A DNA stretch of 35,371 nucleotides from positions 1-35,371 of the forward strand of contig JANQEX010000052.1 of assembly GCA_028278105.1 (NCBI GenBank), in the 5' to 3' direction. Position 1 is the first letter of the stretch; every line of letters starts with the position of its first letter. The translations under genes were made by a program, and so were the position numbers. Origin of the DNA: Alphaproteobacteria bacterium. Lineage in GTDB: Bacteria > Pseudomonadota > Alphaproteobacteria > UBA9219 > RGZA01. Below the pieces are notes generated by a model. The model did no database searches. It saw nothing but the letters and a program-made list of their open reading frames with translations, and was not told where the DNA came from. Of the stretch, positions 7,827 to 13,552 are shown one piece after another.

Positions 7827-9293
7827 ATGAACACCAACATCGCCCCGCTTCACCAGAAAACCCGCATTCCGCTTGCCATCGGACCCTTGCACTTCGTGGG
7901 CATGGGCGGCATCGGCATGAGCGGCATCGCCGAAATCCTCCACCATCTTGGCTACAAGGTGCAGGGGTCGGACGCGGCGGAAAACGCCAATGTCCGGCGT
8001 CTGCGCGGCATGGGCATTGCCGTCGCCATCGGCCACAAGCCCGAAAATCTGGGGGAGGCGGCGGTGGTGGTCATCTCTTCCGCCATCCGGAAAGACAATC
8101 CCGAATTGCAGGCGGCCCGCGCGGCCATGCTGCCGGTGGTGCGCCGCGCCGAAATGCTGGGCGAGTTGATGCGCCTGAAATGGGGCATCGCCATCGGCGG
8201 CACGCATGGCAAAACCACCACCACCTCCATGGCCGGCGCGCTTCTGGAAAAGGCGGGGCTGGATCCCACCGTCATCAATGGTGGCATCGTCAACGCCTGG
8301 GGCACCAATGTGCGCCTGGGCGAAGGCGACTGGATGGTGGTTGAATCGGATGAATCCGACGGCTCGTTTCAGAAACTGCCCGCCACCGTCGCCGTCGTCA
8401 CCAACATGGACGCCGAGCACCTGGACCATTACGGCGATTTCGCCGCCGTGCGCCGGGCTTATGATACGTTCGTCACCAATATTCCCTTCTACGGCTTTGC
8501 CGTTCTGTGCCTTGACCACCCTGAGGTTCAGGCGATGGTTCCGCGCGTTTCCGACCGGCGGATCATCACCTACGGCTTCAACGCGCAGGCCGACGCGCGG
8601 GCCGTGAACGTGGAAACCGGGCCGCATGGCGCGCGTTTTGACGTGGTTTTCCTCGACCGTAAAACGGGCAAAAGCGAAAACCTGAACGGCCTCACCCTCC
8701 CCATGTACGGCCGCCACAACGTGCAGAACGCGCTGGCGGCGCTGACCGTCGCGCGCGAGCTTGGCGTGGCCGCTCCGGTTCTGCGCGAGACGCTGGCGAA
8801 TTTCACCGGCGTCGAGCGCCGTTTCACCCGCACCGGCGAAGCCGGCGGCATCGCCGTGATCGATGATTACGGGCATCATCCCGTGGAAATCGCCGCGGTG
8901 CTTTCGGCGGCGCGCGGCGCGCGCGCGGCGGCGGGGCGCACCATCGCGGTGATCCAGCCGCACCGCTATACGCGCCTTTCCGCGCTGTTCGAGGAATTCT
9001 GCTCCTGCATGAACGACGCCGACGCGGTGATCGTGGCCGACGTGTATCCCGCGGGCGAGCCGCCCATTCCCGGCATCACCAAGGAGGCTTTGGCCGAAGG
9101 CCTGCGCGCCCATGGCCACCGCGACGTGCATGTGCTGCCGTCTTCCGATGATTTGCCGCCGCTTGTCGCCAAAATCGCCCGTCCCGGCGACATGGTGGTA
9201 TGCCTGGGCGCGGGCAATATCACCAGTTGGGCAAAAAGCCTGCCCGGCGCGCTGGAAAAAATCCTTGCGGCCTCCAAAAAAGCCGCGTCGTGA
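7827..9293 (+). CDS. murC: UDP-N-acetylmuramate-L-alanine ligase MurC
   Basis: Cytoplasmic ligase adding L-Ala to UDP-MurNAc, the first stem-peptide step. The 488-residue product has the N-terminal dinucleotide-like loop [12 protein letters not shown] (25-36), the P-loop GTHGKT (125-130), [20 protein letters not shown], the [12 protein letters not shown] motif and DDYGHHP in the C-terminal domain. It starts five bases after murG with only a weak upstream ribosome site, which suggests it depends on translation of murG. The stop overlaps a possible GTG start of murB. Confidence 0.97.
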
Positions 9294-9307
9294 CGCCGGA
9301 GGACCGA

Positions 9308-10228
9308 TTGACCGCCGCCACCTCTTCTCCCCTTCTTTCACGCCTGCCCGCCGTGCGCGGCCTGCTGGAGTCCGATGCTCCCTTGCGCAACAGCACATGG
9401 TTTCGCGTGGGAGGAACGGCGGAAGTCCTGTTCCAACCCGCCGACGAGGAAGACCTGGCGTCTTTCCTGAAGCGGCTTCCCGCCGGCGTGCCGCTGACGG
9501 TTCTCGGTCTTGGCTCGAACGTCATTATCCGCGATGGCGGCGTGGATGGCGTGGTGGTGCGCCTGGGTTCGGGTTTTCGCGGCGTGGAGGTGGACGGAAC
9601 CATCGTCACCGCGGGCGCGGCAACGGTTGATTTTCAGGTGGCGCGGGCGGCGCTCATGCATGGGCTGACCGGACTCGAATTTCTGTGCGGCATTCCGGGC
9701 AGCCTTGGCGGCGGCCTGCGCATGAATGCCGGCGCCTATGGCCGCGAGTTCAAGGACGTCGTGATCGACGTGCGGACGGTTGACCGTCACGGCAACATCC
9801 GCACCCTCTCTTGCGCGGACATGGGCTTTTCCTACCGCCACAGCGGCGCGCCGGAGGACCTGATTTTCCTTTCCGCCCGTCTGAAGGCCGCGCCCGGCGA
9901 CACGAACGCCATCGCCGCGCGCATGGCCGAAATCCAGAAATCGCGCGAGGAAAGCCAGCCCATCCGCACGCATACCGGCGGCTCCACCTTCGCCAACCCG
10001 AATGGCGAAAAAGCCTGGCAACTGATCGACACGGCGGGATGCCGGGGCATGAAGCTGGGCGGCGCGCAGGTATCGGCGCAACATTGCAATTTCCTCATCA
10101 ACACCGGCAACGCCACCGCCGAGGAACTGGAAAATCTGGGAGAGGCCGTGCGCGCCCGCGTGGCGGAGAAAACCGGCGTGGATTTGCGTTGGGAAATCCG
10201 GCGGCTCGGCAAAAAATGCTCCCAATAG
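9308..10228 (+). CDS. murB: UDP-N-acetylenolpyruvoylglucosamine reductase MurB
   Basis: FAD-dependent reductase that completes UDP-MurNAc from enolpyruvyl-UDP-GlcNAc. It shows the FAD-binding motifs TWFRVGG and GLGSNVIIRDGG, then GIPGSLGGGLRMNAGAYG, FSYRHSG, and GGSTFANP with the serine that acts as proton donor in the family, and a Glu in the C-terminal LRWEIRRLG. The start is uncertain. A GTG at 9290 would overlap the murC stop, but the strong ribosome site GGAGG (9298-9302) lies five bases before the TTG at 9308, and the resulting N-terminus (TAATSSPLLSRLPAVRG) looks like family starts. I therefore prefer the TTG, giving 306 residues. Confidence 0.93.
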   Translation: MTAATSSPLLSRLPAVRGLLESDAPLRNSTWFRVGGTAEVLFQPADEEDLASFLKRLPAGVPLTVLGLGSNVIIRDGGVDGVVVRLGSGFRGVEVDGTIVTAGAATVDFQVARAALMHGLTGLEFLCGIPGSLGGGLRMNAGAYGREFKDVVIDVRTVDRHGNIRTLSCADMGFSYRHSGAPEDLIFLSARLKAAPGDTNAIAARMAEIQKSREESQPIRTHTGGSTFANPNGEKAWQLIDTAGCRGMKLGGAQVSAQHCNFLINTGNATAEELENLGEAVRARVAEKTGVDLRWEIRRLGKKCSQ

Positions 10229-10246: not shown

Positions 10247-10268
10247 TGCCCGTGGAGGATTTTAGATC

Positions 10269-12671
10269 ATGCGCATTGCTATTGTTTGCGGCGGACCTTC
10301 TGCCGAGCGCGGCATATCCCTGAATTCGGCGCGGTCGCTGCTTGATCACCTTTCCCCACAGGGCTGGGAGATTGTGCCCCTGTATTGCGATATGCAGCGC
10401 CGTTTTTTCCGTCTGTCCACGGCGCAGCTTTATTCAAATACCCCGTCTGACTTCGATTTTAAGCTTGCCCAGTCAGCGTACGCGCTAACCAAAGAGGAGT
10501 TTATCCGCGAATGCCGCGCGGCCGATCTTGTCTTTCCGGCCATACACGGCGCTTTTGGCGAAGACGGCGCGCTTCAAACTCTTTTGGAAAAGAACGGGAT
10601 CCCATTTATCGGGTCGCCCGCGTCGACATGCACCAGAATGTTCGACAAGGCCAGCGCCAACACGCATCTTTCCCGTCATGGCTTCGCTACCCTGCCAAAC
10701 TGCACCTTTAGCGCTGAAGACAAGCCGGAGGATATTGTGGCACGGGCCGGTGCTTTTTTTCGCAGGCATCACTTGACCCAGGCCGTGGTGAAGCCGACCG
10801 CGGGCGGTTCCAGCCTGGGCGTTGCCACCGTGACCTCCGCCGCCGAAGCCGCAGAAAAAGCCCGTCTTCTTTTTGAACAAAAGCGCGACACCAGCGCGAT
10901 CATCGAGCCCTATTGTGACGGGCAGGAATTCACCGTTCTGGTGTTACAGGCGCCGGACGGCAAGCCGGTTGCCCTTATTCCCACCGAAATACGTCTGGAA
11001 GGAAAGGAGTCGGAAATTTTCAGCTTTCGTCATAAATACCTGCCTAATTGCCATGTATCCTATCATTGTCCGCCACGCTTTTCCGATGAAATCATTGCCG
11101 CCATCCAGAAATCAGCCGAAATTCTGTTTGTCTTCTTCGGCATGCGCGATTTCGCACGTCTTGACGGCTGGCTTTTGCCCGAAGGAGGAGTGGTCTTTTC
11201 GGATTTTAATCCCATTTCCGGCATGGAGCAAAACAGCTTTCTATTCCATCAGGCAAGCCGCATCGGTTTTAGCCACGCCGAAATCCTTCGTTACATCGTC
11301 ATGCAGGCTGGGCGACGTGCAGGCATCACATTTTCTCAGAAAGAAGCGGTACCGCGGGGTCCCCGGCGCCCCGTGCATGTGCTGTTTGGCGGCGCCACTG
11401 CCGAGCGGCAGGTTTCATTGATGTCGGGAACCAATGTATGGCTTAAACTTTTACACTCCGCACATTATGCGCCCGATCCTTATTTACTTGCCTCCAATGG
11501 CGAAGTATGGCGGCTTCCCTACCCATTCACGCTAAATCACACCGTGGAAGAAATCGCTCTTCATTGCCAGAGCGCCGGAGAAACAATCCAAAGGCTACAA
11601 AAGCTTGTGCCGCCGATTCGGGCGCGGCTCGGCCTTGACCCCAACGCCATGCCGCAGGCCATGCCGCAACGCATGAGCCTTGAGCAGTTTTGCCAAGAGG
11701 CAAAGGCAAAAGATGCTTTCGTTTTCCTGGGCCTGCATGGCGGCGCGGGCGAGGATGGAACCATTCAGGCGATGCTGGATTCCTTCGGTCTTGACTACAA
11801 CGGCTCGGGACAAACCACGTCAAGGCTTTGCATGAACAAGGAAGAAACAGGAAAAATCATAAACGCGCTGAACGATCCGGGGCTGATCGCCGCGCCCAAG
11901 ATCAGTTTTCGGCTAGAGGAGGCCCTGCGCAATCCAAAAGGATTTTTTGCCCGCGCCTGTGAAGAACTGAACAGCACCGATCTGATTATCAAACCGCAAG
12001 ATAATGGCTGCTCGGCCGGTGTTGCGCGGATCCAAACGGTTACAGATTTTTCTGCCTACATGCGCGCATTGCAAAACGGCCTGTCCATGTTGTCCCCCCA
12101 TAGCCTCGCGCAACAGCCTAACATTATCGAACTTCCCGCCGCGCCCCGGCAATTGCTTTTGGAACCTTTTATCGCCACCGACGAAACCCTTGTGGACGGC
12201 GCAACGCTTATTCACCACCGTCGCAAGGGATGGATTGAGATGACGGTGGGAGTTCTGGAAGAAGCCGGGCGCATCCATAGTTTTCTGCCCAGCATCACCG
12301 TTGCCAAAAATTCCGTTTTATCGCTTGAGGAGAAGTTTCAGGGCGGCACCGGCATTAATCTCACCCCCCCGCCAGGCAGTATTGTCAACACAAGGCAAAT
12401 TGCCCTTATCCAGGCTCGGATTGCCGAGGCGGCCGAGGCGCTCGGCATTGAAAATTACGCCCGTATAGATATCTTTTTCAACATGGAAACGGATCAGGTT
12501 CTTGTTATCGAGGCGAACAGCCTGCCAGGCCTTACCGCCTCCACCGTGATTTTCCATCAGGCGCTGGCGGAAAATCCGCCGCTTGCACCGGGCGCATTCA
12601 TCGAAAAGCTGATTGTGCTAAAATCAAGACAGACACAGGACGTCCCGCCTTTGTCGCAAAGATGCTCATGA
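10269..12671 (+). CDS. ddl: Tandem D-alanine-D-alanine ligase-like protein, two fused ATP-grasp domains
   Basis: Occupies the usual ddl place between murB and ftsQ but encodes 800 residues, about 2.5 times a normal Ddl. Residues 1-355 form one complete Ddl-like unit and 366-790 a second. Each has the N-terminal GG-x-x-AER (E13, E379), the HG-x-x-GEDG motif (93-100 and 490-497) and the ATP-grasp loop after KP (K175, K575). Domain 1 keeps the S-S-x-G loop (S181), the K256-Y257 pair and R297/D299, but has D312 where E. coli DdlB has metal ligand E270, and SGM instead of PGM. Domain 2 keeps R732/D734, E748 and N750, but has C581 for S150, F690 for Y216 and T759 for S281. Which half makes which product is unknown. 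The base composition looks poorer in GC than the flanks. Confidence 0.9.
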   Translation: MRIAIVCGGPSAERGISLNSARSLLDHLSPQGWEIVPLYCDMQRRFFRLSTAQLYSNTPSDFDFKLAQSAYALTKEEFIRECRAADLVFPAIHGAFGEDGALQTLLEKNGIPFIGSPASTCTRMFDKASANTHLSRHGFATLPNCTFSAEDKPEDIVARAGAFFRRHHLTQAVVKPTAGGSSLGVATVTSAAEAAEKARLLFEQKRDTSAIIEPYCDGQEFTVLVLQAPDGKPVALIPTEIRLEGKESEIFSFRHKYLPNCHVSYHCPPRFSDEIIAAIQKSAEILFVFFGMRDFARLDGWLLPEGGVVFSDFNPISGMEQNSFLFHQASRIGFSHAEILRYIVMQAGRRAGITFSQKEAVPRGPRRPVHVLFGGATAERQVSLMSGTNVWLKLLHSAHYAPDPYLLASNGEVWRLPYPFTLNHTVEEIALHCQSAGETIQRLQKLVPPIRARLGLDPNAMPQAMPQRMSLEQFCQEAKAKDAFVFLGLHGGAGEDGTIQAMLDSFGLDYNGSGQTTSRLCMNKEETGKIINALNDPGLIAAPKISFRLEEALRNPKGFFARACEELNSTDLIIKPQDNGCSAGVARIQTVTDFSAYMRALQNGLSMLSPHSLAQQPNIIELPAAPRQLLLEPFIATDETLVDGATLIHHRRKGWIEMTVGVLEEAGRIHSFLPSITVAKNSVLSLEEKFQGGTGINLTPPPGSIVNTRQIALIQARIAEAAEALGIENYARIDIFFNMETDQVLVIEANSLPGLTASTVIFHQALAENPPLAPGAFIEKLIVLKSRQTQDVPPLSQRCS

Positions 12672-13552
12672 GCCGCGCCAAGCGCCGTATAACCATCCGC
12701 AAGCCGCGCAAGGAACAGCGTCCCGGCTTTTGGGCGGCGCTGCGTGGCTTGCTGTTGCCGGCCATGATTTTTCTGGCCGTGCTCGTGCTGGGCGGCACGG
12801 CGGTCCTGTGGCGCACCGGCAAGGTCGGGGAATGGGGGCGGGATCTGACCGCCGCCGCTTATGGCCTTTCGCGCCATGCGGGATTTTCCGTAAAGGAAAT
12901 CGTGGTGGAAGGCCGCACCCGGACCGAGCGCGGCGATATCCTTAAGGTGCTGGGCGCCAAAAAAGGATCGCCCATCCTTGCCTTTGATCCGCATGAGGCG
13001 CTGGAAAAACTGTGCGATATTTCCTGGGTGAAAAACGGCACGGTGGAGCGGCGGCTGCCCTCCACCATTTACGTGCGCCTGACCGAGCGGAAACCGATTG
13101 CGCTGTGGCAGCACAACAAGCGTTTTTTCCTGATCGACGACGAGGGCCACGCGCTGCGCGAAGCGCCGCTGGGCGAAAATCCGGCCTTGCCGCTGGTGGT
13201 GGGCGCGGGCGCCGGCAAGGAAGCCGCCGCATTGCTGACGCAGCTTTCAAGACACCCGTCCATCTTCCGGCGCATGCGCGCCGCGGTGCGGGTGGGCAAG
13301 CGCCGCTGGGACTTGCACATGGATAACAAGATTATCGTCAAGCTGCCCGAAGAGGATGCCAAAAAGGCGCTCACGCGCCTCGATAACCTGATATCCCGGC
13401 AGAACATCCTTGACCGCGATATCGTCGCGCTGGACCTGCGCCTGCCCGACCGCATGACGGTGGAAACGCCCCCGCCGCCCGGAGACACAAAGAAACCCGG
13501 CAAGAATCCCAAAGCCAAAAAAAATCGTGCGGTAAAATCCGGGGCCAGATAG
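12668..13552 (+). CDS. ftsQ: Cell division protein FtsQ
   Basis: Bitopic divisome protein that links cytoplasmic and periplasmic division proteins. It has a basic cytoplasmic N-terminus (about 20 residues rich in Arg/Lys), one membrane segment (LLPAMIFLAVLVLGGTAVLW), then a POTRA domain beginning FSVKEIVVEGRTRT and a beta domain with VERRLPSTIYVRLTERKP, WQ and FFLIDDEG. The C-terminal tail is Pro/Lys-rich. The ATG at 12668 overlaps the ddl stop (ATGA). An in-frame ATG at 12662 would add two residues. The spacing suggests coupling to ddl translation. Confidence 0.93.
   Translation: MSRAKRRITIRKPRKEQRPGFWAALRGLLLPAMIFLAVLVLGGTAVLWRTGKVGEWGRDLTAAAYGLSRHAGFSVKEIVVEGRTRTERGDILKVLGAKKGSPILAFDPHEALEKLCDISWVKNGTVERRLPSTIYVRLTERKPIALWQHNKRFFLIDDEGHALREAPLGENPALPLVVGAGAGKEAAALLTQLSRHPSIFRRMRAAVRVGKRRWDLHMDNKIIVKLPEEDAKKALTRLDNLISRQNILDRDIVALDLRLPDRMTVETPPPPGDTKKPGKNPKAKKNRAVKSGAR

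Follow-up and report, generated by a model that had tools for sequence, protein, structure and literature searches.

A two-domain D-alanine–D-alanine ligase with unlike halves in the dcw cluster of an alphaproteobacterium

The window analyzed here, a 35,371-nt stretch of DNA from an alphaproteobacterial contig, carries within its dcw cluster a single open reading frame that encodes two D-alanine–D-alanine ligase (Ddl) units in one chain. Ddl, which D-cycloserine targets, is essential and has been studied in depth; by standard teaching, two identical subunits form a homodimer. The protein described here belongs to a family that, as a whole, has exchanged the homodimeric Ddl for two covalently joined, dissimilar halves, both of which bear an invariant active-site signature of their own. 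This bacterial fusion is real and widespread, and no earlier report of it was found in the open-access literature that we searched. With a probability of roughly 0.7, we interpret the protein as a covalent pseudo-heterodimeric Ddl that derives from a tandem gene pair, is the only such enzyme of its cell, feeds MurF, and has replaced the ordinary ddl gene in place. By this account, two adjacent paralogous ddl genes, like those present in a few Patescibacteria today, probably fused, the fused gene would then have moved between lineages, and in the alphaproteobacterium it would have displaced the ordinary ddl from its dcw slot. The resulting chain of two non-equivalent units would act as the sole source of D-Ala-D-Ala, which MurF adds to the peptidoglycan precursor. 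The Tyr-type N half would be suited to synthesis of the dipeptide, and the Phe-type C half may have an altered specificity for the second substrate or may provide a helper site.

Gene structure and domain assignment

The open reading frame extends from position 10269 to 12671 on the forward strand, begins with ATG, and comprises 800 codons with no internal stop. A GGAGG sequence located 10 bases upstream of the ATG (10254..10258, +) is a probable ribosome-binding site. On the basis of Pfam matches and a 19-sequence alignment, residues 1-350 (10269..11318, +) constitute the N half, a Tyr-type Ddl unit. This is followed by a linker of about residues 351-365 (11319..11363, +), which differs among the aligned homologues, and by a C half (residues 366-786; 11364..12626, +) that Pfam, the alignment and the structural model delimit as a Phe-type Ddl unit with insertions. 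The upstream neighbor is murB (9275..10228, +), as judged from Pfam and from synteny with the related genomes G001-G003, and the downstream neighbor, similarly assigned by Pfam and synteny, is ftsQ (12662..13552, +), which overlaps the ddl stop codon. Pfam matches further identify murC-murB upstream and ftsQ-ftsA-ftsZ downstream of the double ddl, with murC (7827-9293) being a gene of its own. The double gene thus occupies the ddl slot of the dcw cluster, which lies between murB and ftsQ. The first-pass annotation had described a chain with two complete Ddl units, encoded where a single ddl gene is usual, and this description is borne out by the flanking genes and by the pair of Pfam domains found in each half.

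Both halves consist of the domains Dala_Dala_lig_N and Dala_Dala_lig_C, with scores above the Pfam cut-offs for the N half (PF01820, 90.6 bits; PF07478, 83.6 bits) and for the C half (69.1 and 51.5 bits, respectively). When compared with TIGR01205, which has a cut-off of 245.65 bits, the N half scores 176 bits, the C half 119.1 bits and the whole protein 289.6 bits, such that only the sum passes. The two halves are related to each other (24% identity, E=2e-14; hhalign E=6e-26), and their low identity shows that neither a recent duplication nor an assembly repeat is involved.

Structure prediction of the full chain, a check that had been proposed together with the original observation, was carried out with AlphaFold2 using a 29-sequence alignment and yielded a model with a mean pLDDT of 86.8 and a pTM of 0.87. 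A model of the C half alone reached a pLDDT of 89.1 and a pTM of 0.87. The top structural matches of both models are Ddl crystal structures, and both halves thus adopt the Ddl fold by prediction. The weakest internal stretches of the whole-chain model, residues 246-254 and 682-694, fall at the two omega loops. Judging from the high pTM, the halves may pack against each other in the manner of a Ddl dimer. The idea of a pseudo-dimer that was put forward in the first-pass annotation is plausible, given this pTM and the occurrence of separate, adjacent gene pairs in three relatives.

Distribution of the fusion

Protein searches aimed at the spread of the fusion recovered over 90 homologues of full length, which are distributed over Patescibacteria, Chlamydiota, a single alphaproteobacterial order and a scatter of other lineages. 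A search within the order to which the source genome belongs detected the fusion in ten more genomes, at about 57-66% identity, and overall it is present in 11 of the 33 genomes of the order that we examined, in 7 of 15 genera. When one genome was scanned for each species, 80 contigs with full or nearly full fusions emerged, predominantly from Patescibacteria; beyond that phylum, the carriers were metagenome-assembled genomes (MAGs) of Alpha-, Gamma- and Deltaproteobacteria and one Parachlamydiaceae MAG. Within phyla, the fusion was present in 14 of 380 sampled genomes of Patescibacteria (one match being partial), in 2 of 399 of Pseudomonadota (the source genome included), in 19 of 234 of the phylum of the Parachlamydiaceae MAG, which we read as Chlamydiota from the label of that MAG, and in 2 of 58 of the phylum of the MAG labeled Deltaproteobacteria, where one copy has an internal stop. 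The lineages that bear the fusion mostly have small genomes or depend on hosts, and many of the carriers are parasites or host dwellers.

The source genome is a draft in 119 contigs, a state that leaves room for an assembly or binning error in which two ddl genes were joined. Such an artefact is vanishingly improbable and is ruled out by numerous assemblies, made independently of one another and from several phyla, in which continuous frames of ~800 amino acids recur with unchanged order and motifs.

For phylogenetic and conservation analyses we used 96 full-length fusions, among which a few genomes are present twice. The resulting tree separates a mainly patescibacterial group from a group of Chlamydiota and Proteobacteria with a support of 0.98, and the alphaproteobacterial order forms one branch inside the latter. 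Five fusions from contigs labeled Gammaproteobacteria, Rickettsiales, Thiotrichales, Dadabacteria and Actinomycetota (L039, L052, L087, L091 and L109) nest in the patescibacterial branch, a placement that could reflect either mis-binned contigs or transfers. Plasmids, phages and viruses were also considered as vehicles for mobile spread; the plasmid and phage matches were single Ddls of about 1 kb only, and a scan of viral contigs returned no relative.

The double enzyme as the sole Ddl

The source genome has a size of 2.05 Mb and is estimated to be 100% complete. A Pfam profile search of this genome found no second Ddl. Two further PF07478 matches were examined as candidates, and their sequences read as AccC and PurK, leaving the double enzyme as the only Ddl. 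The suggestion that no other ddl exists, which was originally based on the window, therefore extends to the whole genome. This condition is shared by other carriers, as a PF01820 domain outside the fusion is absent from 10 of 11 distant fusion genomes and from all 17 fusion genomes of a second set. Counting G473 and G063 once, since they are apparently one genome, the double enzyme is the only Ddl in 26 of the 27 other fusion genomes tested. The sole exception is a Kaiserbacteria genome (G062) that has a second Ddl-type frame of 435 residues (C1:580148-580420).

Replacement of the ordinary ddl gene

Close relatives of the source organism retain an ordinary ddl gene at the same location. The arrangement murC-murB-single ddl-ftsQ occurs in one genome of the same genus (G001) and in two of the same family (G002 and G003), and a further member of the family (G004) has murC-murB-single ddl. 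Between the window and these four genomes, MurB is 64-67% and FtsQ 52-62% identical (66% and 62% for G001), compared with only 26-28% for the ddl products. Relative to fusion-bearing members of another family in the order, MurB is 58-61% and FtsQ 38-48% identical, and the double Ddl of the window shares 57-63% identity with other fusions. Thus, the flanking genes track kinship and ddl alone does not, indicating that ddl was exchanged by itself. Because genomes of the same genus and family carry the ordinary ddl beside murB, this exchange represents a replacement in place.

The position of the fusion is not fixed, as it lies outside the dcw slot in five genomes of one genus (g5), where its neighbors, as read from their sequences, include a probable PBP1A gene or carA-carB. 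Some genomes of the same order (L019, L025 and L030) and one from elsewhere in the class (L021) encode, instead of the DdlB-like enzyme, a different type of single Ddl with a length of about 410-445 residues; accordingly, the order has at least three kinds of Ddl.

Active-site signatures of the two halves

We mapped the active-site residues of both halves onto E. coli DdlB and counted conservation over the 96 fusions, using residue roles (Glu270 as a metal ligand and Glu15-Ser150-Tyr216 as a triad) that are established for this enzyme. The N half keeps Glu15, His63, Lys97, Lys144, Ser150, Glu187, Lys215, Tyr216, Arg255, Asp257, Asn272, Gly276 and Ser281 (DdlB numbering). Its Lys256-Tyr257 (11034..11039, +), corresponding to Lys215-Tyr216 of the omega loop, is present in 96 of 96 sequences. 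Equally invariant, and specific to the family, is the segment (11202..11237, +) in which Asp312 replaces Glu270 and is accompanied by Asn314 and an SGMEQNS loop at residues 317-323. The C half keeps Glu15, His63, Lys97, Lys144, Glu187, Lys215, Arg255, Asp257, Glu270 and Asn272, and differs from DdlB in all 96 fusions by the changes Ser150 to Cys (Cys581; 12009..12011, +), Tyr216 to Phe (Phe690, within the omega-loop motif EEKFQGGTG at residues 687-695; 12327..12353, +) and Ser281 to Thr (Thr759). The last of these closes an invariant stretch that begins with the metal ligands Glu748 and Asn750 (12510..12545, +). Exceptions to conservation in the C half are limited to two sequences at positions 582 and 632 and to a Gly/Ala alternation at 754. 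A ten-residue DdlB set (Glu15, His63, Ser150, Lys215, Tyr216, Arg255, Asp257, Glu270, Asn272 and Ser281) is consequently incomplete in both halves, with Glu270 missing from the N half and Ser150, Tyr216 and Ser281 missing from the C half. The triad is therefore intact in the N half, where one metal ligand is altered, whereas the C half retains its metal ligands and has lost two of the three triad residues.

These departures bear on the division of labor between the halves. Either half could be impaired, the N half by the Asp at its metal ligand and the C half by its two triad losses, and it has to be considered that one half makes D-Ala-D-Ala and the other binds ligands as a structural or regulatory partner. 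The first genes of the unfused pairs described below, which lack His63, Asn272 and Gly276, suggest that one partner can degenerate. A non-catalytic half would nevertheless be expected to drift, and the remaining listed site residues are invariant in both halves (96/96) apart from positions 582, 632 and 754 of the C half; we regard a single catalytic half as a somewhat unlikely arrangement. In the form in which the first-pass annotation had stated it, with one half catalytic and the other regulatory, the proposal is not supported, as all 96 fusions keep the residues of the nucleotide, phosphate and metal sites in either half, with the conservative Glu-to-Asp change of the N half as the one departure. 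Both halves probably bind nucleotide and catalyze. That the double enzyme produces D-Ala-D-Ala is likely on indirect grounds, namely its status as sole Ddl of the genome, its dcw position and the alr and murI neighbors in relatives.

The invariant occurrence of Tyr in the N half and Phe in the C half at position 216 (96/96 for each) is also compatible with two different products. For the enzymes of lactic acid bacteria, the identity of this one residue, Phe or Tyr, sets depsipeptide versus dipeptide activity (PMC5996685), and the Phe of the C half is shared with D-Ala-D-Lac ligases of the Phe type, such as LmDdl2 of Leuconostoc and those of lactobacilli. A bifunctional enzyme could thus be envisaged in which D-Ala-D-Ala comes from the N half and another D-Ala product, for example a depsipeptide, from the C half. 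Unlike those ligases, however, the C half is joined to a Tyr-type half, carries Cys150 and Thr281, which fall outside the Tyr/Phe rule, and scores only 52.5 bits with the D-Ala-D-Lac model NF000206, far below its cut-off of 550. The rule itself is based solely on lactic acid bacteria, and in view of the two additional changes and the low model score it is no more than suggestive for the C half; we consider two distinct products rather unlikely. The Tyr/Phe split nonetheless constitutes a natural experiment on substrate choice by Ddl.

Unfused gene pairs and the origin of the fusion

In three Patescibacteria (G076, G137 and G098), two single ddl genes follow each other on one strand. Consecutive single-domain ddl genes are located at L148 1919-5715 (-), where the pair is immediately preceded by a co-directional alr, at L149 1515-4305 (+) and at L150 1405-4003 (+). 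In each of the three unfused pairs, the second gene has Cys150, Phe216 and Thr281, as does the C half, a combination that was absent from 33 other single Ddls (20 singles and 13 patescibacterial). The first gene, in which His63 is replaced by Leu, Asn272 by His and Gly276 by Ile, indicates that one partner may be degenerate in these pairs.

The first-pass annotation had proposed to check whether the halves form separate clades, and the N and C halves do so. A 37-sequence tree groups the C halves with the second genes (support 99), the N halves with the first genes (82) and all four together (95). This topology suggests fusion of a tandem gene pair, which we favor as the history of the protein. 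The alternative that the halves arose within the chain, when a single ddl was duplicated and without any relation to the unfused pairs, is compatible with the AU test, in which an exclusive clade of N and C halves yields p=0.18. It is nonetheless improbable, given the support of 99 for the grouping of the C half with the second unfused gene and the three substitutions that these two share and that none of the 33 other single Ddls has in full. A topology in which both unfused genes join the C half is likewise not rejected (p=0.55), and in a first tree of 78 sequences with loose trimming the N halves fell beside long-branched single Ddls and the first unfused gene on the C side. Since the AU test leaves these alternatives, fusion of a tandem pair is favored and not proven.

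Genomic context in relatives

Among 71 loci from the genome-contig scan that have a neighbor on the downstream side, alr, which encodes alanine racemase, is a direct neighbor of the fusion in 20, in most of them as the following gene in the same orientation, and murI, which encodes glutamate racemase, adjoins it in five; NCBIfam confirms one alr and one murI representative beside fusions. Many patescibacterial fusions have one of these two genes as a neighbor. Together with the dcw position, these neighbors tie the double enzyme to the supply of D-Ala-D-Ala for peptidoglycan.

Relation to known ligases

The double enzyme resembles ordinary Ddl (PF01820 plus PF07478, TIGR01205; E. coli DdlA and DdlB) in the fold of both halves, in nearly all catalytic residues, in its dcw position and, among relatives, in its linkage to alr or murI. 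It differs from the one-unit, homodimeric enzyme in having two units per chain, in the substitutions fixed in each half and in that neither half alone attains the TIGR01205 cut-off. The MurC-Ddl fusion of Chlamydiaceae (NF011171) similarly ties Ddl covalently to a domain of the same pathway, but its partner is MurC, whereas that of the window protein is a second Ddl, and the latter scores 124.2 bits against a cut-off of 1015 for that model. The unfused patescibacterial pairs share with the fusion two consecutive Ddl units, the second with the three C-half substitutions, and differ in encoding two separate proteins, the first of which lacks three of the residues that the N half keeps.

The same two-Ddl architecture has been described for plants, where the putative ligase DDL of Arabidopsis and Physcomitrella consists of two fused DDL enzymes and is found throughout the plant lineage (PMC9954125). 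That protein, which we know from this description, differs from the bacterial one in being eukaryotic and plastid-targeted. A list of plant genes that are putatively chlamydial includes D-alanine-D-alanine ligase B (PMC2376095), and moss Ddl has been reported to be closest to the Fibrobacteres-Chlorobi-Bacteroidetes group (PMC9434261). The presence of the architecture in genomes of environmental chlamydiae makes an origin shared between the plant and bacterial double Ddls plausible; we consider it rather unlikely that the bacterial fusion, via Chlamydiota, would be the source of the two-domain plant DDL. For plant DDL, expression of a bacterial relative in E. coli could serve as a direct test bed.

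A few fusion loci show further features. In a Paceibacterota MAG, a continuous frame of 1193 residues encodes the Ddl-Ddl protein together with a fused class I/II aminotransferase (L060 4962-8540, +), and at another locus (L090) an aminotransferase gene, 39% identical to that of L060, directly follows the fusion. An aminotransferase was considered as a general partner of the double enzyme and is clear in these two cases only, fused in one and adjacent in the other. In a Gammaproteobacteria MAG, a fusion frame of 913 residues extends upstream through a helix-turn-helix stretch that resembles a HigA-like antitoxin (L037 4634-5000, +), representing either read-through from a neighboring gene or a genuine extension.
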